From a virus: a stretch of 32,814 nucleotides of DNA. Numbering within the stretch: position 1 is the first letter of the stretch; every line of letters begins with the position of its first letter. Below the pieces are notes generated by a model, which saw nothing but the letters and a program-made list of their open reading frames with translations, did no database searches and was not told where the DNA came from. Both the position numbers and the translations under genes were made by a program. This document shows positions 621 through 21,700 of this stretch, piece after piece. The stretch spans positions 1-32,814 of IMG/VR virus record IMGVR_UViG_3300023116_000187. One strand, given 5' to 3'.

Positions 621-647
621 ATTCATTGAATGGAGTGATTCTAATTC

Positions 648-1454: not shown

Positions 1455-1471
1455 TTTAAGGGAGATTAATT

Positions 1472-1618: not shown

Positions 1619-1621
1619 TAT

Positions 1622-1651
1622 AGAGAGGGGGTCTTAGGACCCTCTTTTTTT
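1622..1651 (+). terminator. Rho-independent terminator
   Basis: A 10-bp stem (arms 1624-1633 and 1638-1647, with two G-T pairs) has a TTAG loop (1634-1637) and runs into a T tract to 1651. It begins four bases after the stop of the 48-residue gene and closes the glycosyltransferase unit. Confidence 0.9.
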
Positions 1652-1687
1652 GTTTATAGATATGATAAGGATCCCTTTTACTCCTTT

Positions 1688-2407: not shown

Positions 2408-2627
2408 GGATGTAGAATACATGTATGAGCAATGGGGCACTGATGGATTAATTACTGACTACCATAGAAATCCTCAGAGAATGCTTCGTGAGATTGCTAA
2501 TGATGATCTAACACCTAAGAAGCATGACTTTGCCATTCAAAAGGAATTGCATGAAAAGATTCGTAATGATGATGATTATGATGACTGGGAGTATGGGACT
2601 GAACCTATTCCATTATCTGAGTTTTAG
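2382..2627 (+). CDS. Small acidic protein of unknown function
   Basis: An 81-residue protein starting at ATG 2382 with AGGAG at 2370-2374 (7-base spacing) inside the end of the upstream gene. It is polar and acidic, with an Asp-rich run near the C-terminus (NDDDYDDWEYG, about residues 62-72). The middle (YHRNPQRMLREIANDD) is probably helical. There are no membrane segments, cysteines or catalytic motifs. The 26-base overlap with the previous gene suggests co-translation with it. It ends just before the late-promoter motif that opens the baseplate unit. The family is not recognised. Confidence 0.75.
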   Translation: MANNPNPDRDVEYMYEQWGTDGLITDYHRNPQRMLREIANDDLTPKKHDFAIQKELHEKIRNDDDYDDWEYGTEPIPLSEF

Positions 2628-2629
2628 TG

Positions 2630-2637
2630 TCTAAATA
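2630..2637 (+). promoter_or_regulatory. T4-like late-promoter motif TCTAAATA
   Basis: The motif ends 26 bases before the gp25 start, the spacing seen at the other copies (17-26 bases). It opens the gp25-gp6-gp7-like unit. A second, weaker match (TTAAATA, 2657-2663) abuts the start codon and is probably coincidental. Confidence 0.7.
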
Positions 2638-2663
2638 ATGGCAGTATTCTTGTGTGTTAAATA

Positions 2664-3065
2664 GTGCCTGTTGAAAGAATCAGTAAAGGATTCAAAGACA
2701 TTAGTGGTTCTTTTCAGATCAATCCTCTCAATGAGGACTTAATTGCTCTGAAGAATGAGACTGCTATTGCCAGGTCACTTCGTAATTTGGTACTAACTGA
2801 GAAAGGAGAGCGTCCCTTTGCACCTAATCTTGGGTGTGGTGTGAATGCTCTCCTTTTTGAAAATATGGATAGTATTACTGCCTCTGTAGTTCGTGATGAG
2901 ATTGTACAAACAATTGAAAACCATGAACCAAGAGTTGATTTGATTGATGTATTTGTTGATCCAGACTTTGATGGAAATGAATTGAACGTTACAGTTCAGT
3001 ATTATATTGTTGGTGCAGACATACCACCACAAGAATTAACATTCGCATTGCAGCCCACTAGGTAA
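2664..3065 (+). CDS. 25: Baseplate wedge subunit gp25
   Basis: A 133-residue protein, almost the length of T4 gp25 (132). The N-terminus (PVERISKGFKDISGSF), the ALKNETAIARSLRNL segment (about 28-42) and the EKGERPFAPNLGCGV segment (47-61) match the gp25/gpW lysozyme-like baseplate family. In T4, gp25 sits at the sheath-baseplate interface, contacts gp6 and gp53, and nucleates sheath assembly. The start is GTG 2664, chosen because homologues begin MPVER. No Shine-Dalgarno is visible and the leader is A/T-rich, as for other genes behind the late motif. The stop TAA abuts the gp6 ATG directly. Confidence 0.95.
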   Translation: MPVERISKGFKDISGSFQINPLNEDLIALKNETAIARSLRNLVLTEKGERPFAPNLGCGVNALLFENMDSITASVVRDEIVQTIENHEPRVDLIDVFVDPDFDGNELNVTVQYYIVGADIPPQELTFALQPTR

Positions 3066-5117
3066 ATGCCTCTAGTAAATTTTAGTAACTTAGACTTTGA
3101 TCAGATTAAAGTTTCCATTAGGGATTACCTAAAGGCGAACTCTAATTTTACTGACTATGATTATGAAGGGTCCAACCTTTCCACTATTATTGATGCGTTA
3201 GCATATAACACATATATTAATTCTTATAATGCTAACATGGTCACCAATGAGGTGTTCATTGATAGCGCCACTTTGAGAGAGAATATTGTTTCTCTGGCAA
3301 GAAATATTGGTTATGTTCCAAGATCAAGAAAAGCAGCAAGAGCAAACATTTCTTTTCTTGTTGATGCTTCCAGCACCAATGCAGTCACTTTAACTCTCAG
3401 AGCTGGTTTGGTATTGACCACTGCAAATACCTTTGGAAATACCAGCTATACCTTCTCTATACCCTCTGATATTACTGTTCCAGTAGATAGCACTGGACTG
3501 GCTCTATTTAACAATATAGAGGTGTATGAAGGTACTTACATTCAACAAGCATTTACTTATACCTCAAGAAATCCAAATCAGAAGTTCATTCTGAATAATG
3601 CGGGAATTGATACATCACTCTTGACTGTTGTTGTAAGAGAATCTCAATCATCATCAGTGTCACGTAAGTATAGGTTGGCAGATAGTTTATTTGAGGTTAC
3701 TTCCACATCTCCAGTTTATTTTATTCAAGAAATTTCTGATGAGAGATATGAACTCTTGTTTGGTGATGGCGTATTTGGACAAGCACTGGAAGATCCAAAC
3801 TATGTCACAGTAGGTTATATTATTTCTAATGGTGCAGAAGGAAATAATCTCAATAACTTCTCATTTGCTGGTAGAATTGTAGATAATAATGGAACAGTGG
3901 TAACTAATGGCATTTCATTGATTACTACAAATCAAACTTCTTATGGTGGAAAATCAATTGAATCAGTAAACTCTATCAAGAAGTATTCTACACAGATCTA
4001 TGCTTCTCAAAATAGAGCAGTGACTGCAGCAGATTATGAAGCAATCATTCCAACCATCTATGCAGAAACTGAATCTGTATCTGCATTTGGTGGTGAGGAT
4101 TTGAACCCACCAGCATATGGAAAGGTTTTTGTAAGCATCAAACCTTATAATGGAGTTTTCCTTTCATCAAACATTAAAGATAACATCAAACAACAGTTGA
4201 AAAGATATACAATTGCAGGAATTGTTCCTGAGATTGTTGATTTGAAATATCTCTATGTTGAGGCAGTCAGTAATGTTTATTACAATACCAACCTTGCACC
4301 TTCTGCTGCAAGTGTTAGATCAATTATATCATCAAATATTGTCAATTACTCAAACTCAACTGACCTTAATAAGTTTGGTGCAAGATTCAAATACAGTAAA
4401 TATCAAAATGTAATTGATAATAGTCATGAAGCTATAACTTCCAACATCTCAACCATAACAATGAGAAGAGATATGGAAGCTAGATTAAATCAGTTTGCTG
4501 AATATGAAATATGCTTTGGTAATAGGTTTTATGTGAAAAACCATGGTCACTCAGGAGCCATGAGTGGAACTGTTATTGGTTATAATATTAAATCATCTGG
4601 ATTCACTGTTAGTGGAATTAATGGAACTGTTTATCTTGGAGATCAAGCAAATTCAGATCTTAAGACAGGTAGTGTATTCTTGTTCAAACTCAATTCAGCA
4701 ACAGAACCTGTTGTTGTGAAGAGGAACATCGGAACTATTGACTATGAAAAGGGAGAAATTAAACTTAATCCGATTAATATCATTTCCACAAGAGTGGTAA
4801 GAGATATTCCTCTGATTGAGATTTCAGTGTCACCTTATTCTAATGATGTCATTGGTCTCCAAGACCTCTACATGCAGTTAGATAATTCTAATGTGACTGT
4901 CAATATGATTGCTGATAATATTGCTTCAGGAAATGATGTTTCTGGAACAAATTATAATGTTTCATCAAGTTATTCAAATGGCAGTTTGGTACGTGGTACA
5001 GCAGTTTTGGCAAACCCCAATACAACTTCTTCAACCACTACATCTACAATGGGCACTTCACAAACCTCGGTAAATAGTACTATCACTAGTACTAGTGGTT
5101 CCACTTATTCTTATTAA
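3066..5117 (+). CDS. 6: Baseplate wedge subunit gp6
   Basis: A 683-residue protein, close to T4 gp6 (660). The N-terminus contains an FTDYDYEGSNLSTIIDALAY segment typical of gp6, followed by YNANMVTNEVFIDSATLREN. The middle holds a baseplate-J-type region with TAADYEAIIPTIYAETESV and FGGEDLNPPAYGKVFVSI (about residues 320-360). gp6 forms the dimeric wedge ring that ties the baseplate periphery to the hub through gp25 and gp53. The last 60 or so residues are a low-complexity Ser/Thr tail ending in SGSTYSY, not typical of T4 gp6 and probably disordered or exposed. The gene starts on the base after the gp25 stop, so translation is coupled. Confidence 0.95.
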   Translation: MPLVNFSNLDFDQIKVSIRDYLKANSNFTDYDYEGSNLSTIIDALAYNTYINSYNANMVTNEVFIDSATLRENIVSLARNIGYVPRSRKAARANISFLVDASSTNAVTLTLRAGLVLTTANTFGNTSYTFSIPSDITVPVDSTGLALFNNIEVYEGTYIQQAFTYTSRNPNQKFILNNAGIDTSLLTVVVRESQSSSVSRKYRLADSLFEVTSTSPVYFIQEISDERYELLFGDGVFGQALEDPNYVTVGYIISNGAEGNNLNNFSFAGRIVDNNGTVVTNGISLITTNQTSYGGKSIESVNSIKKYSTQIYASQNRAVTAADYEAIIPTIYAETESVSAFGGEDLNPPAYGKVFVSIKPYNGVFLSSNIKDNIKQQLKRYTIAGIVPEIVDLKYLYVEAVSNVYYNTNLAPSAASVRSIISSNIVNYSNSTDLNKFGARFKYSKYQNVIDNSHEAITSNISTITMRRDMEARLNQFAEYEICFGNRFYVKNHGHSGAMSGTVIGYNIKSSGFTVSGINGTVYLGDQANSDLKTGSVFLFKLNSATEPVVVKRNIGTIDYEKGEIKLNPINIISTRVVRDIPLIEISVSPYSNDVIGLQDLYMQLDNSNVTVNMIADNIASGNDVSGTNYNVSSSYSNGSLVRGTAVLANPNTTSSTTTSTMGTSQTSVNSTITSTSGSTYSY

Positions 5118-5131: not shown

Positions 5132-8100
5132 ATGGCAGTAGATAGAGTTCAATTCCAGGATATTGTTGCTAGCCAACTCCCACGTTATGTGAGAGAGGAC
5201 TTCCCTTTACTCACTAGTTTTCTAGAGCAATATTATATCTCCCAAGAGTATCAAGGGGGAGTGATTGATCTTGTATCAAATTTAGATCAGTATGTCAAAG
5301 TTGATGAGTTATATAATCTAAAAAATTCTACTGTCTTATTGTCTGACATATCTTATGGTGACACAACCATTGAAACCTCTTCTGTTGGTAATTTTACAGA
5401 AGGGTTCCCAGAAACTAATGGTTTAATCAAGATTGGCGATGAAATAATCAGATATGAATATAAAACTGACTCTTCCTTTGTCAACTGCACAAGAGGATTC
5501 AGTGGAGTTACGTCATATACTAAATCAAACCAACCAGATGAATTAGTATTTTCAACCTCTGATTCTGATGAGCATAGTTCAGGATCTACAATTTATAATC
5601 TAAATATCCTCTTCCTCCAGGAATTTTTTAAAAAACTTAAGAGACAAGTTGTTCCTGGTTTTTCTGATAGAAGTTTATACACTGGACTGGACCAAAGAAA
5701 CTTCATATACAACTCAGACAGTTTCTACAAGTCAAAAGGAACTGATGAATCTTTTGAAATTCTTTTCAGAGCATTATATGGTGTAGATGTAAAAGTCATT
5801 AAACCAACTGAGTATCTTCTTCGTCCATCTGATGCAAACTATAGAATTGTACAAAAATTAGTAGTTGAAGAAAAAACTGGAAATCCTTTAGATTTAACTA
5901 ACCTTACACTGTTTCAGGATCAAACTGGAGCAAGGGGTTCAGTAACTAATGTTGAGCAGATTCAATACGACCAAGGTCAATATTATAGATTGAGTGTTGA
6001 CTTTGGATATCAAAGGGATATTGATGTATCAGGAACTATTTTCAGTGAATTTATTCCAAATCCTGTAACCAAAATACTAAATTCAGTATCTTCTGGATCT
6101 ACTATTGTTGATGTAGATTCAACTGTTGGTTTTGGATCTACTGGATCTTTAATATCTCAAGATTCTGATGGAAATGATGTCACATTAACATATCTTGATA
6201 AGAATGACAATCAGTTTTTGAATGTAAGTGGAATCTATGGATCTTTGGGGAAAGGTATCAATATCCACGCAGATCAGTATGCGTATGCTTATGTTGGTAT
6301 TAATACCTTAGAAAAAATTGAAGTAAGAGTAACTGCTACTCTAAAAGATTTTAAAAAGAATGAGCAAACATATCTCTTCAAGAAAGATGATAAGATAAAT
6401 TTGCAATCAATTGGTATTGAGAAAAATGATGAGAAGTCTCAAAACTGGTTGTATAATGTTAAAACTAATTGGGAAGTTGAAAATGTAAAACTTCTTGATG
6501 CTACAGAAAATAGTTATGAAGTAACAACTTATGATGAAGTATTTTTATCTGAAAGATACAATGTCAATCTTATAGATGTAAGTAATAATAATTCAACAGT
6601 AACTGGAACTGTAAAAAGAGTTACAGGAAAGAGGACTTTTCAGGTAGATCTGTCCAGTTCTGTGACAGTTACTAATAGTTTCAAGGTAGAAAATCAACTC
6701 TTGAAGGGGAATTCAGGTACTTATCAAAATCTTGAAGATTTTCCTTGCAATGTTCAAAATGTTTACACAAATTATGAAGGGGAATATCTGGTAGCTTCTA
6801 ACTCTATTCCAAATTATAGTGTAGAATCTAATCCATACGATAGAAAAGTAACTTTCAGTGGAACCTTTAATGGTACTGATACCATTACTCTCACACCTTC
6901 CACAGACCATGGATTATATACTGGTGATGCTGTTTGGTACAAACCAGCAATCATTACTACAACTACCACAAATGCTGATGGAATAACAATCACAACTCAA
7001 AGTGAAGATAAACTCAGCAATGTGGATGAGGGTATTTTATATGTCTATAGAATTGATCAATCCAGAATCAAACTGTCAAGAAGCAGATCAGATCTTTTTG
7101 CAGGGAACTATGTGTCCTTGACAGGGACAGTTACGAATAATGAGTTAATCTACTATAACTTCTACAATAAGGAGTTATCCCCACAAAGAATCTACAGAAG
7201 TATTCTTCCACCTGTTAATAAGAGTGGAGAATACGCAACAGTTCCAGGATATACTGGAATGTTAATCAATGGTGTGGAAATTCTAAACTACAAATCCATT
7301 GACACTATTGCTTATGGTGATATCTTATCTTTTGATGCATCCAAAGGCGGAAGTGGATATGATGTAATTAATCCCCCAACGCTTCATATTACAGATCAAG
7401 TTGGAACAGGTGCCACAGGAACTTGTTGTGTAACTGGATCATTAAAGAGAATTGATATTATTGATAATGGATTTGATTATGTTGATAAACCAACCATTAG
7501 AATTTCTGGTGGAAATGGAACTGGTGCAGCAGCAGAACCAAATATGTCTGCTATTATACATTCAGTAAAATTCAATGCAGAAGCGGGAATTACTACTACA
7601 AATACTGTTGGTGTTGGAATTACAAATGATACCATTGGATTCTCTACTTTCCATAAGTTTGCTCAAAGCGAAAAGGTAGTATATATTTCCAATAATCTGA
7701 CAAATGTAGGTGGTCTTTCTACAGGAGCATCCTATTATGTCAATCTTGTAAATGACTACTCCATTCAACTTCACACAAAAGAATCTGATGCCACTTCTGG
7801 AATCAATACTGTCAGTTTGACCTCTCTTGGTTCTGGAATACAGAGGATACAATCTGCTCAAAGAAAGAATATTGTTTCAAGTATTGTAATAACTAATTCT
7901 GGAACTGGATATCAAAATAAAAAGAGAACTATACCAACCTCTGGAATCAACACCTCTCTTAATCAAATCAAGATCGTTGGTCATGGATATGAATCAAAGG
8001 AAATAATCAAATATACTGGATCAAATCTCTCTGGTGTTTCTACAACTAAGGATTACTATGTTGTTAAAGTTGATAATGACACATTCTCATTGTCTGAAGT

Positions 8101-11100
8101 AGGAACAGGAGCAACTCCCACAGATTACTACTATAACAATGGTGTTATTGTAGATATTTTGAGTGAAGGAACTGGTTCATTTAATTACAAACCAATCACT
8201 GTAACAGTAGAAGGAAATATTGGTGTTTCTACTAATACAGGGCAGAACTTCTCCTGCATAGTACAACCAATTTTCAGGGGGTCTGTGGACTCTCTGGACC
8301 TCTCTGCAGGTGGTGTAGGGTATGGCGCATCTGAAGTAGTTAATTTTGATAGACAACCAGATATCACTCTTAGAAGTGGAGAAAATGCTCAATTGATTCC
8401 AGTGGTGGATAATGGAATCATTACAGATATTATTATTCAAAGTAGTGGAAATGGATATAATTCACCACCTGATATTACAATCAATAGTTCTACTGGAAGA
8501 AATGCAGCATTGACACCCATCATTAGAGATGGAAAGATTGTAGATGTAGTCATAGCAAAGGGTGGAATAGGATATAGTTCAGCAGATTCTATTACAGTAA
8601 CTGCTGCTGGTTCTGGCGCTATTATCAATGCCAATATTAGAAAGTGGAATATCAACCTATTTGAAAGAAACTTTAACATTATTGAAGATGATGATGGTTT
8701 TGTGGAAGAAAGCATCAATGACAAAACTCTTGAATATTGTCACATCTATGCTCCAAGAGAATTAAGAAAGCACACATATTCTGTTTCTGGTAATGAACCA
8801 GTTTATGGTAATGCCGATTTAACTTTTGTTAGTGGATTTGAAGCAGACAGTAAGTATCATTCACCAATACTTGGTTGGGCATATGATGGAAATCCAATCT
8901 ATGGACCATTTGGATTCACAAGTGTGTCAAGTGGAACAATCAAGAGAATGGTATCTGGATATGAATTGCAGGCAGATACAACCAATAGACCACCAACTAC
9001 AGTTTATCCAGAAGGATTCTTCATTGAAGATTATGTTTATACTGGAAAGGGTGATCTTGATGAGCACAATGGAAGATATTGCATAACTCCAGATTATCCA
9101 AATGGAGTTTATGCTTATTTTGCTACTATTAATTCTACAGTTGATTCATCAGGTCCATTTAAAAATTATAAAAGACCAGTTTTCCCATATTTGATTGGTC
9201 ACAAATACAATTCACAACCAAACCTCTTCAACTTTAGACAAACATCAAATCAAATTGAATACAACTTACAGAACAGTTCATTCTTGAGATGCACTCAGGT
9301 CTATCACACAAATGATGATAAGAGTGGATATGATTATATCTTCAATTCAAAGAAGAAGAAACCTCAGACAATTGATATTACATCTGCTTCAGTTGGATCT
9401 ATTGAGAGCGTTGGTATTCTTACTGGTGGAACAAACTATAAAATCAATGATAGAGTTGATTTCAATAATGATGGATCTGGAGGGAGAAGTGCTGATGTAA
9501 GAGTTTCAAGAATTTCTGGTAAGACCATTGACACCATTAGTGTTGCTTCAACAAGCATCTATAATGTAGAGTTTATCAAGTACAATCAAAGTTACATTGG
9601 ATTTGCAGCAACACCTCACGGATTGTTGACCAATGATGTTGTTCAGATTTCTGGAATATCCACATATTTCAAAGGATTTAATGGGTCTTATCCTGTTGGT
9701 GTTAGAAGTGATAATTTTGTCTTGACCCTTGGTATTGGAACCACGGCAGCAACTGGAGATGTTACTTATCTCTATGTTTCTGGTGCTCTTGGTTATCCAA
9801 ATATCAGACCAAATGATATTTTGAGAATTGGTACTGAGGAGGTAAAAGTTCTCAATGTTGATGCAGATACTCAAAGAATTCGTGTTCTTAGAGCACAAAA
9901 CAACACTGTAGGTGTTGCTCATACCAGCAGAGAAATTCTATATGAAGATCCCAGAAAGTTTACTGTAAACATCAGTGGTCTTACTACAGACAAAAACTTC
10001 ACCATCAATAGGGAACTTTATTTTGATCCAGCAGAATCTGTTGGAACAGGAACTGCTACAGGTGCTGGGATAGGCACCACAGTCACCTTCTCAAATCCAG
10101 GTATTGGTGCTACACAGGTATTTGTACCAACAAGGGCAATTTATATTCCCAACCACAATTTAAAGATTAATGACATTCTTACATATTCAACAAATGGTGG
10201 CACACCATTGTATGTTTGGAATGGAATTGGTGGAACTTCTTACAATAGTTTGTCAAACTTCCAATATGTTTATGCTGCTCCAATTACAAATGATTTAGTT
10301 GGCATTAGTTCCAATAAAGTTGGAATGGGAAGCACTGGATATGTTGGCATCAATACATCCACTAACTTACTCTATTTCACCAATACTGGAATTGGCGATA
10401 CTCATAGTTTCACAACAAACTACGATAACATTATTAGTGGACAAGTAACTCAAAATATAGTTACTGTTTCCACAGCAAGCACTCACAATCTTTCACTTTC
10501 TGATAGAGTTTTTGTTGAAGTCAAACCAATAGGAATTACCACAGTTTCTGTAAGATATAATTCCTATAATAGAAGAATTGTATTTGATCCAAAATCATTT
10601 ACAGCAGGTGACATTGATATTTCCAATGATACCATTGCATTTGATGATCAATACTTCAATATTGGAGATAGAGTAATTCACACATCATCTTCTCCTGCAG
10701 GTGGTCTTGTTGATGAGAAAATGTATTATGTTCTTCCATATAATGAAACAAAGATTAGGCTTGTTGAAAATTACTTCGAGCTCTCATCTCAAGAACCAAA
10801 GTATGTCAATATCACAAGTTCTGGTGATGGTACTCTTTCCAAAATCAATCCACAAGTAAAGTCAAATAGAAACATCAAACTTAAATTTGATCTTTCTGAT
10901 TCATCGCTGTCCTTCGTCAATAACAGCACCAGATATTCTGCTTTTGATTTTGCTCTTTATAGTGATAAAGAGTATAACAACAATTATCTGACTTCTGGCA
11001 ATTCAAGCACCTTTGAAGTATCTTCCAGTGGAAAAATTGGAATTGATACTTCTGCAAATTTGACATTGAATATTTCTGACAATGTTCCTACAAATCTCTA

Positions 11101-14100
11101 TTATAAGTTCACCCCAACTAATTTGGACATAGTTCCAGATGATCAGAAGGGCATTTCAATTGATGATACAATTTCAAACTTTAATGAAATTGAAGTAGTC
11201 AAAACTGCGTATGATGGAAACTATCAAATTGTTGGACTTGGTACAACTACTTTCTCATATAATGTGCCAGTGGCTCCGGAGGCAACTCTTTATAATACAA
11301 CCAATTCCAATATCTCATATGAAACCAGTTCTACCAGTGCAAGTGGTTCTATTACACAGTTAAAGATTTATGATGGTGGAAGGGATTATAGAACTCTTCC
11401 TGGAATTACCTCTGTAATTAGTGGAGTTGGTAGTGGTGCCATACTTGAGGCACAATCCACTTCTGTTGGTAGAATCCTCACAACCAAATTCAATGATATT
11501 GGATTTGATTATCCATCAGACACCACTTTAAGAGTAACTGCAAACATTCCAGAGAATTTAAAAGTAGATCCACTCACCTCATTTGAGAGCATTGGTATTT
11601 CATCTGGTGGAAAAAATTATCTTGTAGCACCTGATCTTATTGTTATTGATGGTTTTACAGGAAATGTTGTTGAAGATGTTGATCTAAAATATTCTCTTGG
11701 TGATACCAGTGTAAGAATACTGAAAAATACTCAGGGAATTTATAATACAACACCAACAATTCTCCCAGTAAAAAATAGCAATGGTGTTGGAATTTCTTCA
11801 CTGACCTATGATTCTGCTACAAAGGTAGTCAGATTGTATTTGAATACCCAATTCAGCAATGCAGAAGATTTCCCATTTGCTGTTGGTGAAAATATTATGG
11901 TTGAGAATATCAGTGTTGGTGGTATTGGAACAACTGGTAAAGGATACAATTCTAAAAACTATGGTTATACCCTATTCCCAGTTACTGCAGCAGATAGTCA
12001 ATTAGGGGGATCTGGTGCTTATGTTGAATATAGCCTTGATCCATACATTCAAGATGGGAGTTCACCTGGTTCTGTTGATGGGTCAAATTCTGCAGGAAGA
12101 GCAATCCCACAAAACCATTTCCCAATCTTTGACATTAAACTAAAGAAAAATGATTTCTTTGTTGGTGAGAGAGTAACCAATGGAACTAAAGTTGGCGTAG
12201 TTGGAAGATGGGATCCTCTTAGTGAATACGTCATTGTTTCTACAGACAAAGAGTTCACTGTTGGAACAAAGATTATTGGACAGAGTTCTGGGGCACAGGC
12301 AACAATTAAGTCCAAATTGAACTTCAGTTCAGAAGTTATCACTGGAGCAGGAGCAACAGTCATTGATGGATGGCAGAGTAATTCTGGATTCCTGAATGAT
12401 AATCTCCAGAGACTCCCAAATAATGAATACTATCAAACTTTATCGTACTCATTGAAGTCAAGTATCCCTTATGGCACTTGGGATGATGCAGTAAGTTCCA
12501 TGAACCACACTGCTGGATTTGCAAAATTTGCAGATTATGTGGCAGAGAGTAAAGAAGATACTCCAGAAGGAATTGTTCAGACACAAGATTCTGGAGTTGA
12601 TATTACTGTAGATATTATTGGAACAGGCAAATTAAATTGTGTCTATGATTTTGACTATGCTACTGAAAAAACTATCAATGTTGATGGAATTATAACATCT
12701 ACAGAAGTTATTTTTGAAAATGGCGTATTTGTTGATTACTTCGAATCCTTTGGAAACAGAGTTTTAAGCATTGATGATATTAGTGGACAATTTAACAGCA
12801 ATGAGAGAGAAACTCGATACACTGCAATTGCTGATTTCTCAGATCATGTGAAATACACAAAGATATTCAATTTTGTACAAGATATAAATCTTCAGGGAGA
12901 AAGAAAAGCAGCAATTATATCTGTTCTCCAGCATGATGAGATTGGTTATATTCAAGAGTATGCAACTATTGAAACTGGAGCAGAACTTGGATACTATGAT
13001 TATCAAGCAACATCTGATGGATTCAATATCAACTTCTATCCAAATGATTATGAATTTACAAGATATGCATTGTCATCAGTATCATTTGATGCAATAAACA
13101 ATGTTACTGGTGTTGGTTCAACTAACATTGGAACAATTTCGCTCATAAATTCATATCAAACAAATGTTGCTGCTGCCACAACCACAACAATTGTTTCTAT
13201 CTCATCAACATACAGAGCATCTAAGGCTCTGATCATGCTTGAAAATGATGAGCAGCAATTCACTGCATCTGAATTGAACATCCTCCATGATGGAACAGAT
13301 GTCTATATGACAGAGTTTGGTGATCTTAGTGTGAGTTTGACTCCAGATTTTACTGGATTTGGAACCTTCCATTCATATATTGATGGTTCTCAAATCAAAG
13401 TTGATTTCATTCCAAGTGTTGGAGTAGCACTAACTGCCAATTCTAATGTTGTTTCCATTGCTAACTCAGAAGCAACTGGAATTGGATCTGTAAGATTGGA
13501 TGTTTGTGATGTAACCTCACATTATGCTTCTATTGCTGCATCTGGATCCCCAACAGCAGTAAATGTTGCTTCTTATCATGATCCAATCTTAAGTTCATAT
13601 AATCTTGTTTCTGTTGAAGATTTGACAAATAACGAGTATGAAATGTTTGAAGCAATCCTTCTAACAGGAATTACTGATGAAAATGAAGCAGTATTTGTTG
13701 AATTTGCAAATATGTCTTCTGGTGCAGGTTTGGGTACTGTTGGATTCAGCACTGATAGTGGAAATCACCTCACATTTACTCCAGAACCAAATATTGATGT
13801 TGAGGTAAGAACCTATTCTATGGGAATGTTGGTTTATGATGCTAATCTACTTCCAACAGGAATTGGATTCACAAATACTGAACTAACAACTCATGCAAGA
13901 GAATATAGAGGAACCAGACTTGAATTGGCAACCTCATTTGGTCTTAAGCATAATGGACTGGAGATCTTTAGAAGATCTTTCGATGGAAATAGCACATCTA
14001 TTGTTGATCTGACTGGAAACTTTGTTAGAATTCCTGATCACTTCTTTGTTACTGGTGAAAAGGTAACTTATCAGTATTCAGGAACAGGAACAGAAAATGC

Positions 14101-17100
14101 AATTGGTATTGCAACAACTACTGTTCCAGGAATTGGATCTACTGATAAACTTCCAACAGAACTTTATATTGTTAAAAACAGTGATGTAAATCTGAGATTT
14201 GCAGCAACTGCTGAGGATGCTTTGGCATCTGTTCCTAATACATTTGATATTACAACTGTTGGTATTGGAACTTCTCACCACATTAGGTCATCAAATCCAA
14301 ATCCAAGAGTGATGATTGCTATTGATAATATCATCCAATCTCCAATCATTTCTGCTGGTGTAACTCACTCTTTGGCAGATAATATTGTCTTTGACACTAA
14401 TTTTGAATTGAGCGGAATATCTTCCATATTTGCTGATGATTTGATAAAAATAGAAGATGAATATATGCTGGTTCTTGGTGTTGGAGTTGGAGGTGCCAAT
14501 AATGTCACTGTTAGAAGAGCACAAATGGGTTCTCAAGCAGTAAGACATAATATTGGAACCTTAGTTACCAAGATCTCTGGTAATTACAATATTGAAGAAA
14601 ACACACTTCACTTTACCAGTCCTCCTTATGGAAATACTCCAATTGGAACTACAAGTGGTGATCCTGATAACAGAGATTGGACAGGAATTACTACAAGTTC
14701 CACCTTCCAAGGAAGATCTTTCATGAGATCCGCAGCAGTTGGATCTACAACAGATACTTATGGTAAAAATTATGTCTTTGATGACATCTCAAGAGATTTC
14801 ACTGGAATCAGTAGTCAGTTTACCTTAAGTTCTGATAAAAATAATGTTGCAGGATTCTCTACAGATAATGCTATTGTTTTGATCAATGGAATATTCCAAC
14901 TCCCACAAGGAGAACAACCAACCAGTGTTCAGAGAGGTGACTACGACTTGGAGGAGGGTTCAGTAACTGGTATTACAACAATTACCTTTACTGGAAATTC
15001 AGAACTGCCTTTTGGATATGATCCAAACAGAACAGCATATCCAACTGGTGGACAAATTGTTAGTGTTGGTTCAACAGAAGGATTTGGATATCAACCTCTT
15101 GTTTCTGCTGGTGGAACTGCTGTTGTTTCTGGTCTTGGGACAATATCATCCATTAGCATTGGAAACAGTGGATCTGGATATAGAGTAGGAATTCAAACAG
15201 TTGTCAATGTAGGGGTTCAAACTTACAGTTCAGGAACACCAAATATTGAATTTATTGGAACTGCTGCTATTAGTGGTGGTCATATTGTAAGTATTGCCAT
15301 CACAAATCCTGGAGCTGGATATACCAGCACTAATCCACCAGAAGTAGTGATTGATTCTCCTCTTCCATATTCAAATATTCCTTTGGTCTATAGTTCTGAT
15401 TCATTGACTGGTTCTGGTCAGAGTGCAACTGTGGATATCACTGTGGGACAAGGTTCGAGTGTTATTAACTTTGAATTTAACAATTATGGATTTGGGTATG
15501 GACCTGATGAAATTTTGACAGTGAATATTGGTGGTGTGAGCGGTATTCCAACTGATACAACTAAAACATTTAATGAATTCCAAATTACTATTGATAGAAC
15601 TTTCAGTGATCAGTTCACTGGTTGGAATATTGGACAACTGCAAGTTATTGATGCTCTTGATAATGAGTTTGATGGATTGCAAAATACCTTTGCCATGAAG
15701 ATTAATGGTGAACCATTCTCAGCCAAAACCAGAAAAGGTTCAAATGTTGATCTTGTACAAACCTTGATAGTATTCATTAATGATGTCCTTCAAGAACCCA
15801 ATCTTTCATATACATTTAAAGGTGGTAGTTTAATTAACTTTAATGAGGCACCAAAGGAAGGTGACATTTCTAAAATTCTTTTCTACAAAGGAACTGATGG
15901 TTTAGATGTTCAGTTTGTTGATATTATTGAATCTTTAAAAGTTGGTGATGATATTGAATTAAACTATGACCCAGATCAAAATCAATCTCCTGCTCTTGAT
16001 CAAGATCCAAGGATCATAACTGGAATCAATACAGTTGATAGTGTAACAACAAACCCATACATTACTCCTGGTATTACTACCGACAGATCACTCTCAAGAC
16101 CTGTCATCTGGTGTAAGCAAACAGTTGATAGAATTATTGATGGTCAAAAAGTTGGTAAAGATAGACCTCAATATGAACCACAAATTTATCCATCTTCCTA
16201 TATTTTGAAATCTGTTGGAACCAGTACTGATAGAATCTATGTTGATACTGTAAGACCACTATATGATGCTAATAATGAGGCAACCATCAGATCATTCCAA
16301 GATGTCATTACAATTGTTTCACAAGACAATATTGTAGGTGCATCAGCAACTGCCATTGTTTCTGGTTTGGGTACTATTTCATCTCTGACAATAACAAATC
16401 CTGGTATTGGATATACAGTTGCTCCACAAGTAACTATTGCTAATCCTGTTGGACTTGATACAACATCAAGAGCTAGTGTTACTTCCACTATAAGTGGCGT
16501 TGGAACTGTTGCCACATTGACAGTATCATCTCCAGGAACTGGTTACACTTCATCAAATCCACCAATCGTTCTGATTGAAACTCCAAATGTCATTAGAGAG
16601 AAGGCAAATGTCACTTCATACACTGGTGATGATGGAATTGTAGTTGGAGTTGGAACAACCGTCTCTGGATCGCAAGATCAATTCTTCTTTGATCTCTTCA
16701 TTCCTATGCATTCCCCATTAAGAAATGCAAGTGTTGTTGGAACTGCTATTACAATTAGTGGAATATCTACTTCTGAGTATCTGGTAATAAGTGATACAGA
16801 CATTTCAATTGGAAGCACATTTGCATCTCAAGATGTAGATGGTAATTCAGTTGGTGTTGGAACAACATTTATTGATTGTGTTTACCAGGTTGCTGGTTTT
16901 GAAAATAGACAAATGACAGTTGCTGGTGTTTCTACTGTTGGTAGAAGAATTTTTGTCAATGTGGATACTGTTGGAACTGGAATTGGAACTACAACTGCAC
17001 CAAATATGGGCAACTATAGTTGGGGTAAGATTGTTCTTGATGTAAGAACAGAGTCAAATGATTTTAACTTCTATGGTGATTCTGGGGTTACTGGAATTAC

Positions 17101-17158
17101 AACATCTGCTATAGTTTCCAGATTCAATTCATTGAAGTTCAAAAACTATATTGTATAA
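5132..17158 (+). CDS. Giant gp7-like baseplate wedge protein (4008 residues) with module array and YHYH-type domain
   Basis: One uninterrupted 12-kb ORF encodes a protein of roughly 430 kDa. Residues 1 to about 250 carry an EDFPLLTSFLEQYY segment, then LDQRNFIYNSDSFYKSKGT and FEILFRALYGVDVKV. This resembles the C-terminal part of T4 gp7 (1032 residues), the wedge initiator that binds gp10, gp8, gp6 and gp53. Position between gp6 and gp8 is the T4 position of gene 7. The rest is beta-type module repeats: GxGY units (for example around residues 733-803, 1050-1170, 2073-2190, 3337-3410, 3747-3820); IGxE..V..RA units (about 100-125, 1564-1600, 3104-3150); HxLxxxDxVxY..YYV units; and three 'INGxxQxP'-type units (about 3060, 3248, 3545). 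A YHYH-type domain occupies about 1202-1335. There is no signal peptide. It starts 14 bases after gp6 and has no Shine-Dalgarno. Wedge role is probable; the function of the array is unknown. Confidence 0.8.
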   Translation: MAVDRVQFQDIVASQLPRYVREDFPLLTSFLEQYYISQEYQGGVIDLVSNLDQYVKVDELYNLKNSTVLLSDISYGDTTIETSSVGNFTEGFPETNGLIKIGDEIIRYEYKTDSSFVNCTRGFSGVTSYTKSNQPDELVFSTSDSDEHSSGSTIYNLNILFLQEFFKKLKRQVVPGFSDRSLYTGLDQRNFIYNSDSFYKSKGTDESFEILFRALYGVDVKVIKPTEYLLRPSDANYRIVQKLVVEEKTGNPLDLTNLTLFQDQTGARGSVTNVEQIQYDQGQYYRLSVDFGYQRDIDVSGTIFSEFIPNPVTKILNSVSSGSTIVDVDSTVGFGSTGSLISQDSDGNDVTLTYLDKNDNQFLNVSGIYGSLGKGINIHADQYAYAYVGINTLEKIEVRVTATLKDFKKNEQTYLFKKDDKINLQSIGIEKNDEKSQNWLYNVKTNWEVENVKLLDATENSYEVTTYDEVFLSERYNVNLIDVSNNNSTVTGTVKRVTGKRTFQVDLSSSVTVTNSFKVENQLLKGNSGTYQNLEDFPCNVQNVYTNYEGEYLVASNSIPNYSVESNPYDRKVTFSGTFNGTDTITLTPSTDHGLYTGDAVWYKPAIITTTTTNADGITITTQSEDKLSNVDEGILYVYRIDQSRIKLSRSRSDLFAGNYVSLTGTVTNNELIYYNFYNKELSPQRIYRSILPPVNKSGEYATVPGYTGMLINGVEILNYKSIDTIAYGDILSFDASKGGSGYDVINPPTLHITDQVGTGATGTCCVTGSLKRIDIIDNGFDYVDKPTIRISGGNGTGAAAEPNMSAIIHSVKFNAEAGITTTNTVGVGITNDTIGFSTFHKFAQSEKVVYISNNLTNVGGLSTGASYYVNLVNDYSIQLHTKESDATSGINTVSLTSLGSGIQRIQSAQRKNIVSSIVITNSGTGYQNKKRTIPTSGINTSLNQIKIVGHGYESKEIIKYTGSNLSGVSTTKDYYVVKVDNDTFSLSEVGTGATPTDYYYNNGVIVDILSEGTGSFNYKPITVTVEGNIGVSTNTGQNFSCIVQPIFRGSVDSLDLSAGGVGYGASEVVNFDRQPDITLRSGENAQLIPVVDNGIITDIIIQSSGNGYNSPPDITINSSTGRNAALTPIIRDGKIVDVVIAKGGIGYSSADSITVTAAGSGAIINANIRKWNINLFERNFNIIEDDDGFVEESINDKTLEYCHIYAPRELRKHTYSVSGNEPVYGNADLTFVSGFEADSKYHSPILGWAYDGNPIYGPFGFTSVSSGTIKRMVSGYELQADTTNRPPTTVYPEGFFIEDYVYTGKGDLDEHNGRYCITPDYPNGVYAYFATINSTVDSSGPFKNYKRPVFPYLIGHKYNSQPNLFNFRQTSNQIEYNLQNSSFLRCTQVYHTNDDKSGYDYIFNSKKKKPQTIDITSASVGSIESVGILTGGTNYKINDRVDFNNDGSGGRSADVRVSRISGKTIDTISVASTSIYNVEFIKYNQSYIGFAATPHGLLTNDVVQISGISTYFKGFNGSYPVGVRSDNFVLTLGIGTTAATGDVTYLYVSGALGYPNIRPNDILRIGTEEVKVLNVDADTQRIRVLRAQNNTVGVAHTSREILYEDPRKFTVNISGLTTDKNFTINRELYFDPAESVGTGTATGAGIGTTVTFSNPGIGATQVFVPTRAIYIPNHNLKINDILTYSTNGGTPLYVWNGIGGTSYNSLSNFQYVYAAPITNDLVGISSNKVGMGSTGYVGINTSTNLLYFTNTGIGDTHSFTTNYDNIISGQVTQNIVTVSTASTHNLSLSDRVFVEVKPIGITTVSVRYNSYNRRIVFDPKSFTAGDIDISNDTIAFDDQYFNIGDRVIHTSSSPAGGLVDEKMYYVLPYNETKIRLVENYFELSSQEPKYVNITSSGDGTLSKINPQVKSNRNIKLKFDLSDSSLSFVNNSTRYSAFDFALYSDKEYNNNYLTSGNSSTFEVSSSGKIGIDTSANLTLNISDNVPTNLYYKFTPTNLDIVPDDQKGISIDDTISNFNEIEVVKTAYDGNYQIVGLGTTTFSYNVPVAPEATLYNTTNSNISYETSSTSASGSITQLKIYDGGRDYRTLPGITSVISGVGSGAILEAQSTSVGRILTTKFNDIGFDYPSDTTLRVTANIPENLKVDPLTSFESIGISSGGKNYLVAPDLIVIDGFTGNVVEDVDLKYSLGDTSVRILKNTQGIYNTTPTILPVKNSNGVGISSLTYDSATKVVRLYLNTQFSNAEDFPFAVGENIMVENISVGGIGTTGKGYNSKNYGYTLFPVTAADSQLGGSGAYVEYSLDPYIQDGSSPGSVDGSNSAGRAIPQNHFPIFDIKLKKNDFFVGERVTNGTKVGVVGRWDPLSEYVIVSTDKEFTVGTKIIGQSSGAQATIKSKLNFSSEVITGAGATVIDGWQSNSGFLNDNLQRLPNNEYYQTLSYSLKSSIPYGTWDDAVSSMNHTAGFAKFADYVAESKEDTPEGIVQTQDSGVDITVDIIGTGKLNCVYDFDYATEKTINVDGIITSTEVIFENGVFVDYFESFGNRVLSIDDISGQFNSNERETRYTAIADFSDHVKYTKIFNFVQDINLQGERKAAIISVLQHDEIGYIQEYATIETGAELGYYDYQATSDGFNINFYPNDYEFTRYALSSVSFDAINNVTGVGSTNIGTISLINSYQTNVAAATTTTIVSISSTYRASKALIMLENDEQQFTASELNILHDGTDVYMTEFGDLSVSLTPDFTGFGTFHSYIDGSQIKVDFIPSVGVALTANSNVVSIANSEATGIGSVRLDVCDVTSHYASIAASGSPTAVNVASYHDPILSSYNLVSVEDLTNNEYEMFEAILLTGITDENEAVFVEFANMSSGAGLGTVGFSTDSGNHLTFTPEPNIDVEVRTYSMGMLVYDANLLPTGIGFTNTELTTHAREYRGTRLELATSFGLKHNGLEIFRRSFDGNSTSIVDLTGNFVRIPDHFFVTGEKVTYQYSGTGTENAIGIATTTVPGIGSTDKLPTELYIVKNSDVNLRFAATAEDALASVPNTFDITTVGIGTSHHIRSSNPNPRVMIAIDNIIQSPIISAGVTHSLADNIVFDTNFELSGISSIFADDLIKIEDEYMLVLGVGVGGANNVTVRRAQMGSQAVRHNIGTLVTKISGNYNIEENTLHFTSPPYGNTPIGTTSGDPDNRDWTGITTSSTFQGRSFMRSAAVGSTTDTYGKNYVFDDISRDFTGISSQFTLSSDKNNVAGFSTDNAIVLINGIFQLPQGEQPTSVQRGDYDLEEGSVTGITTITFTGNSELPFGYDPNRTAYPTGGQIVSVGSTEGFGYQPLVSAGGTAVVSGLGTISSISIGNSGSGYRVGIQTVVNVGVQTYSSGTPNIEFIGTAAISGGHIVSIAITNPGAGYTSTNPPEVVIDSPLPYSNIPLVYSSDSLTGSGQSATVDITVGQGSSVINFEFNNYGFGYGPDEILTVNIGGVSGIPTDTTKTFNEFQITIDRTFSDQFTGWNIGQLQVIDALDNEFDGLQNTFAMKINGEPFSAKTRKGSNVDLVQTLIVFINDVLQEPNLSYTFKGGSLINFNEAPKEGDISKILFYKGTDGLDVQFVDIIESLKVGDDIELNYDPDQNQSPALDQDPRIITGINTVDSVTTNPYITPGITTDRSLSRPVIWCKQTVDRIIDGQKVGKDRPQYEPQIYPSSYILKSVGTSTDRIYVDTVRPLYDANNEATIRSFQDVITIVSQDNIVGASATAIVSGLGTISSLTITNPGIGYTVAPQVTIANPVGLDTTSRASVTSTISGVGTVATLTVSSPGTGYTSSNPPIVLIETPNVIREKANVTSYTGDDGIVVGVGTTVSGSQDQFFFDLFIPMHSPLRNASVVGTAITISGISTSEYLVISDTDISIGSTFASQDVDGNSVGVGTTFIDCVYQVAGFENRQMTVAGVSTVGRRIFVNVDTVGTGIGTTTAPNMGNYSWGKIVLDVRTESNDFNFYGDSGVTGITTSAIVSRFNSLKFKNYIV
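8735..9135 (+). other. YHYH-type domain inside the giant gp7-like protein
   Basis: Residues about 1202-1335 of the giant protein contain KYHSPILGWAYDGNPIYGP, then LDEHNGRYCITPDYPNG and YAYFAT. A SPI(L)G-A-DG-PIYGP block, LDE-NGR and a Y-Y-AT ending are the recognisable signature of the YHYH domain family, a secreted or surface protein domain of unclear function. It interrupts the repeat array as a distinct folded unit. Assignment rests on recalled motif similarity. Confidence 0.7.
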
Positions 17159-17195: not shown

Positions 17196-18755
17196 ATGGC
17201 AGCTATAATTACTGACCAACTTCGTATTTTGAATGCAAAGAATTTTGTGGCTGGAGTACAATCCAGCTCAAATTCTTATTACACATTCATTGGAATCCCA
17301 AATGCTACGGATTACCAATCTACATGGGACACCACACCCCCATCACCAATTGATAATATTCAAGAGGTGAACAATAAGTATTGGGACACAATGTTGGCGC
17401 TGAAAAAAATAGCACCAAGTGATGTGAGTCAAGTTGTATTGAAAAGATCCTGGACATCAGGAACCACATATGACATGTGGAGAAATGACATTAGTAGAAA
17501 TAATGCATCACAACCTTCTGGTGTCTTTGACATATATGATGCAAATTATTATGTAATGAATTCTGACTACAGAGTTTATATTTGTCTCTATAACAATGCC
17601 ACTCCAGAAAATAATTTTCAGGGTGGACCCTCACTTGATGAACCAACATTTACTGATTTAGAACCAAGAGCTGCTGGTTCCAGTGGTGATGGTTACATTT
17701 GGAAATATCTTTATACAATTAGTCCATCACAAGCTATCAAGTTTGATTCAACAGATTATATTCCTGTTCCATCTGATTGGGAAACCAACTCAAATTATAC
17801 TGCTGTAAGAACTAATGCATCTATCAGTGGTCAGTTGAAGGTTATCACCATTAGAGATCGTGGTGTTGCTCTTGGGACTGCAAATCAAACATACACTGGT
17901 GTTCCTATACTGGGAGATGGTGAGGGAGCAGAGGCAACAATTGTAATTAATAATGATTCTCAAGTTCAAAGTATTACAGTTTCAAATGGTGGTAGTGGAT
18001 ATACTTTTGGAACAGTAGATTTGGTTGCTGGTGGAGTTCCTACAGGAACAACTGCACCAGTATTTAATGTCATCATTCCTCCTCCTGGTGGACATGGTGC
18101 TGACATTTATAGAGAACTTGGTGCATATAATGTTTTAACCTATTCCAGATTTGAAAATGATACTGAGAATCCTGATTTTGTTACAGGAAACCAATTTGCT
18201 GCTGTTGGATTGATTGAAAATCCAAAAGCATATGGATCCACTACAAATCTTTCTCTGGACAAAGCAAGTGCTGTTTATGCACTCAAATTGACTGGAGCAG
18301 GATACAGCAGTGTTACTTTCAACCCAGACCAATACATCACTCAAACTGTAGGTGTTGGATCTACTGCTATTGGAAGAGTAGTTTCTTATGATCAAACAAC
18401 TGGTGTCTTGAAGTACTGGCAAGACAATGCTAATGCTGGATTCAACTATAATGGATCTCAGAATACTGCTCCAGAGTATGGTTTTAGAGTAAACAGATTT
18501 ACTGCTGATATCAATTCTGGAGGAAGTTTCACTATTGTTGGTGGAAGTTCAAACTTGGCAATTCAAACAAGTTTCCAAGGCATTTCGACAGTAATAAATA
18601 GTAGGACATACTATCTGGGTCAAAACTTCACTAAAGGTGTTGCCCAACCTGAATCAGAAAAATATTCTGGTAACATGCTTTATGTTGACAATAGACCTTC
18701 CGTAACAAGGTCCTCATCACAGAAAGAAGACGTAAAAATCATCTTGCAATTCTAA
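17196..18755 (+). CDS. 8: Baseplate wedge subunit gp8 (extended)
   Basis: A 519-residue protein against 334 in T4. The N-terminal third matches gp8: YYTFIGIPNATDYQSTWDT, the VVLKRSWTSGTTYDMWRND block (about 80-100), YRVYICLYNN, then GDGYIWKYLYTI (about 162-173) and TDYIPVP. gp8 is the wedge dimer that binds gp7, gp10 and gp6 near the wedge periphery. The extra length is mostly in the second half, which holds GxGY-type modules (GGSGYTFG near residue 265, GAGYSSVTF near 367) and a VGSTAIGRVVSYD segment. These are also found in the neighbouring large proteins. The stop is followed 7 bases later by the next ORF. Confidence 0.9.
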   Translation: MAAIITDQLRILNAKNFVAGVQSSSNSYYTFIGIPNATDYQSTWDTTPPSPIDNIQEVNNKYWDTMLALKKIAPSDVSQVVLKRSWTSGTTYDMWRNDISRNNASQPSGVFDIYDANYYVMNSDYRVYICLYNNATPENNFQGGPSLDEPTFTDLEPRAAGSSGDGYIWKYLYTISPSQAIKFDSTDYIPVPSDWETNSNYTAVRTNASISGQLKVITIRDRGVALGTANQTYTGVPILGDGEGAEATIVINNDSQVQSITVSNGGSGYTFGTVDLVAGGVPTGTTAPVFNVIIPPPGGHGADIYRELGAYNVLTYSRFENDTENPDFVTGNQFAAVGLIENPKAYGSTTNLSLDKASAVYALKLTGAGYSSVTFNPDQYITQTVGVGSTAIGRVVSYDQTTGVLKYWQDNANAGFNYNGSQNTAPEYGFRVNRFTADINSGGSFTIVGGSSNLAIQTSFQGISTVINSRTYYLGQNFTKGVAQPESEKYSGNMLYVDNRPSVTRSSSQKEDVKIILQF

Positions 18756-18761: not shown

Positions 18762-21700
18762 ATGCCACAGGAAACTAACCTCAACGTTGCTCCTTATTTT
18801 GACGATTTTGACCCGCAGAGCAATTACTATAAAGTACTTTTCAAACCTGGATTTCCTGTTCAGGCAAGAGAATTAACTACTTTACAGTCAATTCTTCAAA
18901 ATCAGATTGAAGATGTAGGCAATCATCTCTTTAAAGAGGGCGCTCAGGTAATTCCTGGTGGTGTCACATACTTAAATCCATTCTATGCTATCCAAGTTGA
19001 ACCAGAATTCCTTGGAATTCCTGTTTCGCTTTACTTGGATCAGTTGATTGGTAAGCAAATTACAGGAGAAACTTCTGGAATCACTGCAAAAGTAGTCACA
19101 TATATCACAGATCAACAGTCCGAAAGGGGAAATTATACAATTTATCTTGAATATTTTGATTCAAGTACTTCAGATTTAGCAACTAATCAGTTTTTGGACA
19201 ATGAAGTCCTTCTGATTAATGAAAGTATCACCTTCGCAACCACTTTTATTAGTGCTGGGGAGGGTTTTGCCAGAACAATCTCAACAAATGCTGCTGCAAA
19301 AGCATCAGGATTTGCAATAAATGATGGAATTTACTTCCTTAGAGGTTATTTTGTTGATGTGAGGAGTCAACTTCTCATTTTAGACCAATATGGAGACACT
19401 CCTAGCTATAGAATTGGTCTAACTATTGATGAGCAGATTATTTCTTCAGATGTAGATTCATCTTTGAATGATAATGCTCAAGGATTTAACAATTTTGCTG
19501 CTCCTGGTGCTGATAGATTAAAAATCACCACCACTTTGAGCAAAAAACTGCCAGATGACATAAATGATCAAAATTTTGTCCAATTGGCAGATGTAAAAAA
19601 TGGTGTTTTAAGAGATCTTGTAGATAAAACTGATTATAATCTTCTTGGACAAGAATTAGCAAGAAGAACTTTTGATGAATCTGGACATTATTACATCAAA
19701 GAGTTTGTTACCACTGTTAGGGAGAGCCTTAACAATGGATATGGCAACAGAGGAGTATATAATTCAAATCAAACCACAGAAGCTGGAAATGCTCCAAATG
19801 ATGATTTAGCAATTTATAAAATTTCTCCAGGAAGAGCATACGTTAGAGGATATGAAGTCAAAAAAAGAGCAACTTCATTCCTTGATGTACCAAAACCAAG
19901 ATCTACTAACCTTTTAGAGGGTCAGGCAGTCAATTTTGGATTTGGTCCAACATTTACTTGCAATAGGGTTTATGGATCTGCAACAATTGGGTTCAATACA
20001 TCAAATACTCTAAGTTTAAGAGATCAGAGAGTAGGTGATACTCAGACAACAGCACCTGGAAATGAAATTGGTGTTGCCAGAATCTATGATTTTGCTTTAG
20101 AATCAGGATCTTATGACACAACCACACCAGATCTCAATCAATGGGATCTCTCTCTGTTTGATATTCAAACATATACAGATCTGACTGTAAATGAAAATGT
20201 AAATTTAACAACTCCAACCTTTATTCAAGGTCAATCCAGTGGAGCAAGTGCATTTTTGAGATATGATGTCAGTGCAGGCACTGCTGTAACTGCATATGAT
20301 GTTCAAGGAGATTTCTTCATTGGAGAAAGGTTACTTTTCAATGGTGTAAGTACAAACGCCAGAACAATAACTGATATTACCAACTATGAAGCATCTGATG
20401 TTAAGTCAGTTTATGGTATTGTAGGTTCTGGATCCACTTTCACTGCAGATTTGATTCAATATCCAAAAACTGTCATTGGTATTGCGTCAATCACAGCTCA
20501 CAATAGTGGAGTTTCAACAGTAACAACACCTTCCATTGCATTCCCTGGAATTGTAACCACTGGAGCACTTGTTCAGTATTCTGTTGCTACCAACAGTGTT
20601 CCATCTTTGGCAAGAGTCACTCAAGTCAATACAAATTCACTGACAATTGTTGGAGTTACTACTGTAACCTCATTTAGAGAGGGAGGTTTGCCAACAACAA
20701 CCACAGAAGTCACTGACTTCACTGTTGTTGAGTCAAAATTCCAAAATACCAGAGGAAGTGGAAATAGCGCTTCTAATAATACTCTTTATAGCAGGCTTCC
20801 AAAGAATAATATTGAGTCAGTTGATTTAACTAGCTCAAATTTAGTAATTAGAAAGCAATTTAGCACAACTATTACTGATAATTCAACTTCAACTCTGTCT
20901 GCAGGCACAAATGAAGTATTTTTGCCATTTGATGAGGAGAGATATGTTGTTATTCGTTCTGATGGCAGCACAGAAGCTCTAACATCAGATAAGTTAGATT
21001 TCTCAGCAGGATCTACTCAATTAACCATCAATGGTTTGGGTACTAATGATTCTGATACTACAGTTATTGCTACTCTGAGAAAGTCAAAAATTACTTCAAA
21101 AACTAAGAGAAAGTACATTGCTAATAGTTTAGTAATTGACAAATCATCTAATTCAGCATCTGGTGTTGGCGGAACAACTTTGAATGATGGTCTTACATAT
21201 GGAGATTATCCATTTGGAACCAGAGTTCAAGACCCAGTAATTTCTTTAAATGTTCCCGATGTAATCAAAATTCATGGTATTTTTGAATCTAATGATACCT
21301 CTGATGCTGTTGCACCTTCTATGACAACAGGATCACTTGATGGTCCTACAGCAACAACTAATGATCTTATTATTGGTGAAGAAATTTATGGAACTATCAG
21401 TGGGGCAAGGGCAACCTATATTGTCAGAGTAAATGACACTAATATCAGATTTGCCTATAAGAACAACACTGTATTCCAAAATGGTGAGGTTATCAATTTC
21501 ACAAGTTCAGGAGTAAGTGCAGTTGCCAATAGTATCAACATTGGCAGTAAGAATGTAACTGGAGATTATACTCTTGTAAATGGTCAAAAGAATACCATTT
21601 ATGATTTCTCCAGAATTGTTAAAAAACCAAATTCTACCACACCTTCCAAACAACTGATTGTTTATTTTGACAATGCCTACTATGAATCTGCTGATAGTGG

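Follow-up and report, generated by a model that had tools for sequence, protein, structure and literature searches.

A 4008-residue gp7-type baseplate wedge protein of a marine T4-like phage, with a core apparently split by a long insertion

The DNA analysed here (the window) is a 32.8-kb fragment of a viral genome, 32,814 nt in length, from IMG/VR record IMGVR_UViG_3300023116_000187. Positions 5132 to 17158 on the plus strand form a single open frame that begins with ATG and continues for 4008 codons without an internal stop. The calculated mass of its product is 434 kDa, in line with a first-pass annotation in which six copies were estimated to add roughly 2.6 MDa to a baseplate. The gene lies between gp6 and gp8, the place of gene 7 in T4; as that annotation had it, the frame is uninterrupted, and both flanking products match their T4 namesakes. 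Following gp8 are, in order, a gene for a 2486-residue VrlC/DUF4815-type protein (18762-26222), gp13, gp14, gp15 and gp16. Scanning the window for tRNAs and Rfam RNAs revealed none, and a search for tandem repeats yielded nothing notable. The features referred to below are, by position in the window:

2664..3065, plus strand: gp25 (wedge, sheath initiator); PHROG 261/43
3066..5117, plus strand: gp6 (wedge); PHROG 219 and Pfam Gp6 domains; hhalign to T4 gp6, 99.5%, E 2.7e-23
5132..17158, plus strand: predicted gp7-type baseplate wedge protein, 4008 aa, 434 kDa; open reading frame, PHROG 2885 'baseplate wedge subunit' (3695 bits), gp6 and gp8 flanks
5132..6061, plus strand: putative first part of the gp7 core, residues ~1-310, equivalent to T4 gp7 ~642-814; compact-gp7 profile
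5309..5611, plus strand: insert 1, residues ~60-160, within the N-terminal core part; jump in the N-core HMM
5723..5740, plus strand: FYKSKG motif, residues 198-203
6062..12361, plus strand: central insertion, residues ~311-2410 (~2,100 aa), at the point equivalent to T4 gp7 ~815-830
7286..7711, plus strand: G-x-G-Y beta modules, residues ~719-860; fragment comparison with itself and gp14
8282..8620, plus strand: G-x-G-Y beta modules, residues ~1051-1163; same comparison
8846..9139, plus strand: YHYH domain, residues 1239-1336, inside the insertion; Pfam PF14240
11255..11587, plus strand: G-x-G-Y beta modules, residues ~2042-2152; fragment comparison with itself and gp14
12362..12559, plus strand: putative second part of the gp7 core, residues ~2411-2476, equivalent to T4 gp7 ~845-895; C-core HMM
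12560..17155, plus strand: C-terminal extension, residues 2477-4008 (~1,530 aa), with more beta modules
12812..14011, plus strand: least conserved zone, residues 2561-2960, 38-43% identity; alignment of 38 relatives
15095..15367, plus strand: G-x-G-Y modules, residues 3322-3412, in a zone of 68% identity; fragment comparison and alignment of 38 relatives
16334..16576, plus strand: G-x-G-Y modules, residues 3735-3815; fragment comparison
17196..18755, plus strand: gp8 (wedge); PHROG 438; hhalign to T4 gp8, 92.8%, E 4e-7

Some minor points concern the neighbouring genes. The family of the gene at 1688-2407 is labelled 'ferredoxin' by PHROG, while the S-SM2 gene at the matching place is annotated PurM and ACG-2014e uses both names for its counterpart. 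The VrlC-like gene and gp13/gp14 are just 253 bp apart (26223-26475), and this place lacks the 'host recognition cluster' that pelagimyophages are described as having between VrlC and gp14 (PMC7029224). A fibre-like gene occupies 31175-32761. Between its gp7 and gp8 genes, P-TIM68 carries an 814-aa ORF that is absent from the window (positions 24942-27386 of our sequence L001) and matches PHROG 677, 'baseplate wedge tail fiber protein connector', a gp9-like family.

The size of the protein is not new, because annotated cyanophage gp7s already measure between 1.9 and 6.6 thousand residues, and the window protein is ordinary for this group. Giants at the same position are found in P-TIM68 (AIR93427, 4307 aa), S-SM2 (4156), Bellamy (gp111, 4067) and P-SSM2 (5195), and further gp7-position proteins in P-HM2 (4454), ACG-2014f (4225), ACG-2014e (3495), S-PM2 (3048), S-H34 (1942) and P-RSM4 (6603); many of those from cultured phages are already called gp7. 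The match to PHROG 2885, the cyanophage giant gp7 family, is collinear (window residues 4-3368 against 8-3359 of 4179, 3695 bits). Position, architecture, both core parts and YHYH sites are as in the window protein, and the differences are confined to length and detail; over residues 1-2656, identity to the window protein is 41.9% in Bellamy and 48.5% in P-TIM68. That the frame is fused or mis-assembled, as its size and the separate extension gene of phage DSL-LC02 might suggest, is a possibility we consider negligible, since 38 relatives align with it collinearly and the same open frame recurs in cultured phages and in dozens of contigs of independent origin.

Relating this group to T4 gp7 required profiles. 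A phmmer search of the PDB with the window protein gave no match, and BLAST did not link T4 gp7 to cyanophages. In contrast, an N-core profile built without T4 and run against 177,635 PDB sequences found T4-type gp7s as its sole significant matches (E 1.7e-4 and 6e-4). The same two proteins headed the PDB list obtained with a profile of the phiM12, RHph_I1_18 and DLP6 gp7s, which covers residues 647-762 of T4 gp7 and 648-832 of the second T4-type gp7 (E 1.5e-3 and 0.012). In a published study of DLP6 (PMC5349666), its gp7 is listed at percentages of about 4-11 relative to other T4-like phages. A profile of 44 compact metaviral gp7s aligned with T4 gp7 642-901 over 252 columns (hhalign, 99.1%; E 1.6e-18, which like all hhalign E-values here refers to a single comparison, library-wide significance coming from the PDB and Foldseek searches). 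The score was 144.8, and column-shuffled T4 profiles (n=150) peaked at 25.1. The N-terminal profile of the window protein itself paired with T4 727-814 at 95%.

Structure prediction pointed the same way. An AlphaFold model of the compact gp7 core had a mean pLDDT of 69.7 and a pTM of 0.37; its beta domain (140-215) exceeded a pLDDT of 80 and mostly reached 90-95. In Foldseek, three PDB chains matched this model below E 0.001 (1e-12 to 1.6e-7), all of them T4-type gp7. These matches span 202-255 columns with TM-scores of 0.25-0.29, low values for which reason we used the local fold match alone and not the domain arrangement; with a model of this quality we likewise draw no evidence on how the two core parts pack. 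A model of the whole HTVC008M-type gp7 (11 sequences) had a pLDDT of 33.5 and was left out.

The resemblance of the N-terminus to the C-terminal part of T4 gp7, noticed in the first-pass annotation, was thus borne out by profile searches: about 300 residues there are equivalent to the last third of the T4 protein. The FYxxKGTxxSFxxLFRxLY pattern cited there is real; it runs from residue 198 and matches the 727-760 stretch of T4 gp7. The helical domain and FYxxKG helix of T4 (~642-765) have a counterpart in the window protein. For domain V and the W...HPxGF segment (~766-901) the direct match is partial, but it becomes strong via compact intermediates. We conclude, from sequence, profile and fold comparison, that the 4008-residue ORF encodes gp7, a baseplate wedge protein of a marine T4-like phage.

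This assignment is at variance with a 2020 study, which reported gp7 to be missing from pelagi- and cyanomyophages and proposed VrlC as its replacement (PMC7029224). If so, the VrlC-like protein (18762-26222) would substitute for gp7 in marine T4-like phages and the giant would be an unrelated structural protein. The failure of BLAST agrees with that published inference, as do the Pfam gp7 models: none of PF21427, PF21428 and PF21456 reaches E 1 with the window protein. The same models recognise T4 gp7 yet miss the HTVC008M protein too, and describe the T4 branch rather than the wider gp7 family. Against the absence of gp7 stand the profile and fold searches, which connect the giant to T4 gp7, and the gene order gp25-gp6-X-gp8, in which X carries the gp7 core in every gp7-position protein examined. 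Moreover, VrlC showed no match to T4 gp6, gp8-gp12 or wac (T4 gp7 was left out of this comparison). We regard a gp7-less baseplate as very improbable; the present data contradict the published claim.

Comparison with T4 gp7 (5iv5, 5hx2; Pfam Gp7_helical, 5th and 6th domains) shows the same 6-7-8 gene order and a matching core, 642-901. In T4, however, 641 residues precede the core, domain VI follows it and the core has no insertion. Neither T4 1-641 nor domain VI (906-1032) had a detectable counterpart in the window protein, and the C-terminal extension did not match domain VI. Both segments are dispensable for membership of the wider family, because minimal gp7s lack them. The first-pass annotation had supposed that the giant lost the T4 N-terminal region. 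We do not retain this view: minimal gp7s begin directly with the core helices (RHph_I1_18, 528 aa; XM1, 242 aa), and T4 residues 1-641 are therefore best read as an addition on the T4 side. XM1 gp17, a minimal orthologue from a Vibrio phage, is a core-bundle partner of a gp6-type dimer and has a helix-turn-helix start (PMC10457771); far shorter than the window protein, it is likened to it by description and not by sequence.

The second piece of the core lies 2,100 residues downstream of the first. The N-terminal part comprises the helices of the helical bundle, the FYxxKG helix and the start of beta domain V. When the compact-gp7 profile was aligned with the 4008-column family of the window protein, it matched this part (6 to ~310; 99.4%, E 4e-21) and, a second time, residues 2311-2476 (97.3%, E 2.8e-11). 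The latter contain the pattern GxLNxxxQxxxxxYYQxxSYxxxSxxxxxxWxxxVxxxxHxxGFxxF. A C-core HMM gave E 6e-42 on the window protein, which was in its training set, and E 1e-19 to 1e-30 on the unseen S-PM2, P-RSM4, S-H34, DLP6, DSL-LC02 and ACG-2014e/f proteins. Each gp7-position protein examined has one strong match to YYQxxSYxxxSxxxxxxWxxxVxxxxHxxGFxxF, at 2433-2468 in the window protein, ~2485-2520 in P-SSM2, ~773-810 in HTVC008M and 862-893 in T4. All 12 cyanophage gp7s examined contain one strong C-core, preceded by the N-core where the 5' end is present. Among 160 metaviral ORFs with the N-terminal part, some of them from near-identical contigs, 135 also have the C-terminal part, and it is absent from just two 3'-complete ORFs.

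Could the YYQ...HxxGF segment at 2411-2476 be a mere shared module, the giant consisting of a T4-like N-terminal core that grew at its C-terminus only? Alone, the C motif matches T4 weakly (hhalign 52%); T4-type gp7s take the top two places in the PDB, but with E 0.022 and 0.25. Beta modules like those flanking the motif also occur in gp14. The score against T4 (38.8) nevertheless exceeded those of all 200 shuffles (best, 24.5), and neither gp14 nor VrlC gave a strong match to the C-core HMM, whereas each gp7 has exactly one and T4 carries the motif itself at the matching place. The link of the C-core to T4, being weak alone, rests on the compact intermediates. In proteins such as L176 of IMG/VR (482 aa), the two parts follow each other without a long gap and the alignment to T4 645-892 is unbroken. 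Growth at the C-terminus alone is thus improbable. A C-core profile that included T4 (E 1.7e-22) was discarded as circular.

Window residues 191-290 correspond to T4 727-814, and residues 2373-2464 to T4 818-889; the latter pairing, weak alone, falls where it is expected among the 4008 columns. The insertion therefore falls within Pfam gp7 domain V (T4 766-861). Altogether, these data show that the T4 gp7 core has been cut in two by an insertion of ~2,100 residues and followed by a tail of ~1,530. The C-terminal growth proposed in the first-pass annotation accordingly holds for the extension, but an internal insertion, with the second core half beyond it, makes up the other main part of the growth. 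We found no report of a split gp7 core in the literature. It is this architecture, with its narrow insertion point, that deserves recording, and its recognition corrects the statement that gp7 is missing.

Other members of the family display the same core with different additions. The gp7-position protein of Pelagiphage HTVC008M (1016 aa, PHROG 3465) has both core parts, as in the window, but an insertion of ~400 aa and an extension of ~170 aa. Both parts are also kept in the compact gp7s of RHph_I1_18, phiM12 (1007 aa) and L176, which differ from the window protein in having no insert 1, a small insertion and a C-terminal part that lies near the N-terminal part or ends the protein; in RHph_I1_18 and phiM12 the C motif is at the very end. 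The distance between the parts ranges from T4-like to 1,263 residues among metaviral ORFs and from 1,444 to 2,598 in cyanophages. It is nearly constant (2235-2280 aa from N motif to C motif) in the window protein, P-TIM68, S-SM2, Bellamy and P-SSM2. Extensions after the C-terminal part vary from 0 to over 2,600 residues among the gp7s surveyed. In the Synechococcus phage DSL-LC02 (L132 6140-6215), gp7 is made of two genes with the break directly after the C-terminal core part, the ATG of the extension gene being 3 nt past the stop codon of the core gene.

A smaller addition, insert 1, is revealed by a jump of the N-core HMM from position ~41 to ~110 in phiM12/RHph_I1_18; it is absent from phiM12, RHph_I1_18, DLP6 and T4. 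Its domain at ~70-158 (~90 residues) recurs in the VrlC-like protein (24975-25247, 39% identity). P-RSM4 (ADO98490; L133, 4156 onward), with 6603 residues, has a further insert of ~500 residues inside the N-terminal core part.

As for the content of the added segments, 'beta-module repeats' had been said to fill the rest of the protein. Modules are indeed present, as dispersed and weakly similar units of G-x-G-Y and 'HGL' type, but they form no regular array and the second core piece lies among them. Internal pairs in fragment phmmer reach E 6e-14 at best and mostly lie between 1e-2 and 1e-5. The gp14 of the window (27341-28744; 467 aa, against 256 in T4) has a C-terminal extension (27908-28660) of gp7-like G-x-G-Y modules, so that neck and baseplate have building blocks in common. 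The YHYH domain scores 89.5 with PF14240 (curated cut-off, 25 bits) and is present in 12 of 12 cyanophage gp7s examined. A Zn hydrolase of this type would be expected to conserve three His and one Asp. All aligned relatives have His1243, and an Asp (YDGNP) is retained; the other histidines of the domain are not conserved throughout the gp7s.

Conservation along the protein was measured against 38 relatives, namely 35 IMG/VR ORFs exceeding 3,300 aa and the proteins of P-TIM68, S-SM2 and Bellamy; past residue ~3680 the alignment reaches just the three cultured phages. All are collinear with the window protein, with 38-69% identity per 80-residue block and rare gaps. Identity peaks in the N-terminal core part (61-69%), the YHYH domain (65%), the C-terminal core part (62%) and residues 3281-3440 (68%); minima occur at residues 2561-2960 (38-43%), where some relatives have big insertions, and 481-560 (39%).

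These figures bear on the possibility that, around a gp7 core as described, insertion and extension serve mainly as a rapidly evolving apparatus for receptor binding that determines host range. YHYH domains, predicted metal-dependent hydrolases, are often fused to tail or lectin proteins (PMC7824862), and the less conserved 400-residue zone with its large insertions would suit such a role. However, the insertion is evenly conserved, mostly under steady constraint and nearly gap-free in the 38 relatives, unlike a fast-evolving receptor binder, and a fibre-like gene exists elsewhere in the window. An almost fixed length and steady constraint would suit a structural element better than an adhesin free to vary. 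We consider a predominantly receptor-binding role rather unlikely.

In contractile tails, gp7 and two copies of gp6 form the core bundle of each wedge. We favour, with a probability of about 0.8, the reading that the ORF encodes a split-core gp7 scaffold of a T4-like baseplate, whose insertion and extension most likely make up a peripheral layer with docking sites. It would be the one-per-wedge gp7 of a member of the Kyanoviridae with a P-TIM68/S-SM2-like baseplate. Some 280-370 of its 4008 residues would constitute the core that joins two gp6 copies: residues ~6-310 would supply bundle helices and the start of domain V, and ~2411-2476 would complete the core. If the two pieces reunite in the fold, the insertion must exit and re-enter the core at one domain V loop. 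It might then reach outward as a string of small beta modules that is nearly constant in length and includes one YHYH domain, while the extension would depart from the end of the core. Together they may build the outer layer of the baseplate, as arms or a skirt, and offer docking sites for fibres or contacts with the cell surface.

In T4 the periphery is the task of separate proteins, gp9-gp12. A single-sequence search of low power with T4 gp9-12 and wac detected none of them in gp6, gp7, gp8 or the VrlC-like protein. In XM1, flexible stretches of gp17 (80-106 and 201-242) bind tail spikes (PMC10457771); by analogy with these adhesin sites around a gp7 core, insertion and extension would provide an outer layer and fibre sockets. 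Presence in virions is supported by S-CREM2, whose ORF122, a 1937-aa protein at the same position, yielded 91 unique peptides (PMC10665884); in S-H34, which belongs to the cluster of S-CREM2, the homologue measures 1942 aa and contains both parts of the core. More tentatively, gp7 might be a platform with three expansion sites (domain V loop, N-core loop and C-terminus), on which, in marine T4-like phages, a single covalent chain of as many as 6,600 residues in each wedge replaces gp9-gp12, possibly with a YHYH enzyme acting on the host envelope.

Few viruses on Earth outnumber marine T4-like phages. The literature and the PDB copy that we searched contained no baseplate structure for any of these phages. 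The wedge protein of a contractile tail can, it seems, enlarge severalfold with its core retained. A split core would also account for misleading database labels: gp7-type proteins in PHROGs 3465, 4406 and 701 (L095 9001-12051) are labelled 'head closure Hc2' or 'head and packaging', and these 'head' labels probably stem from the modules that such proteins have in common with gp14.
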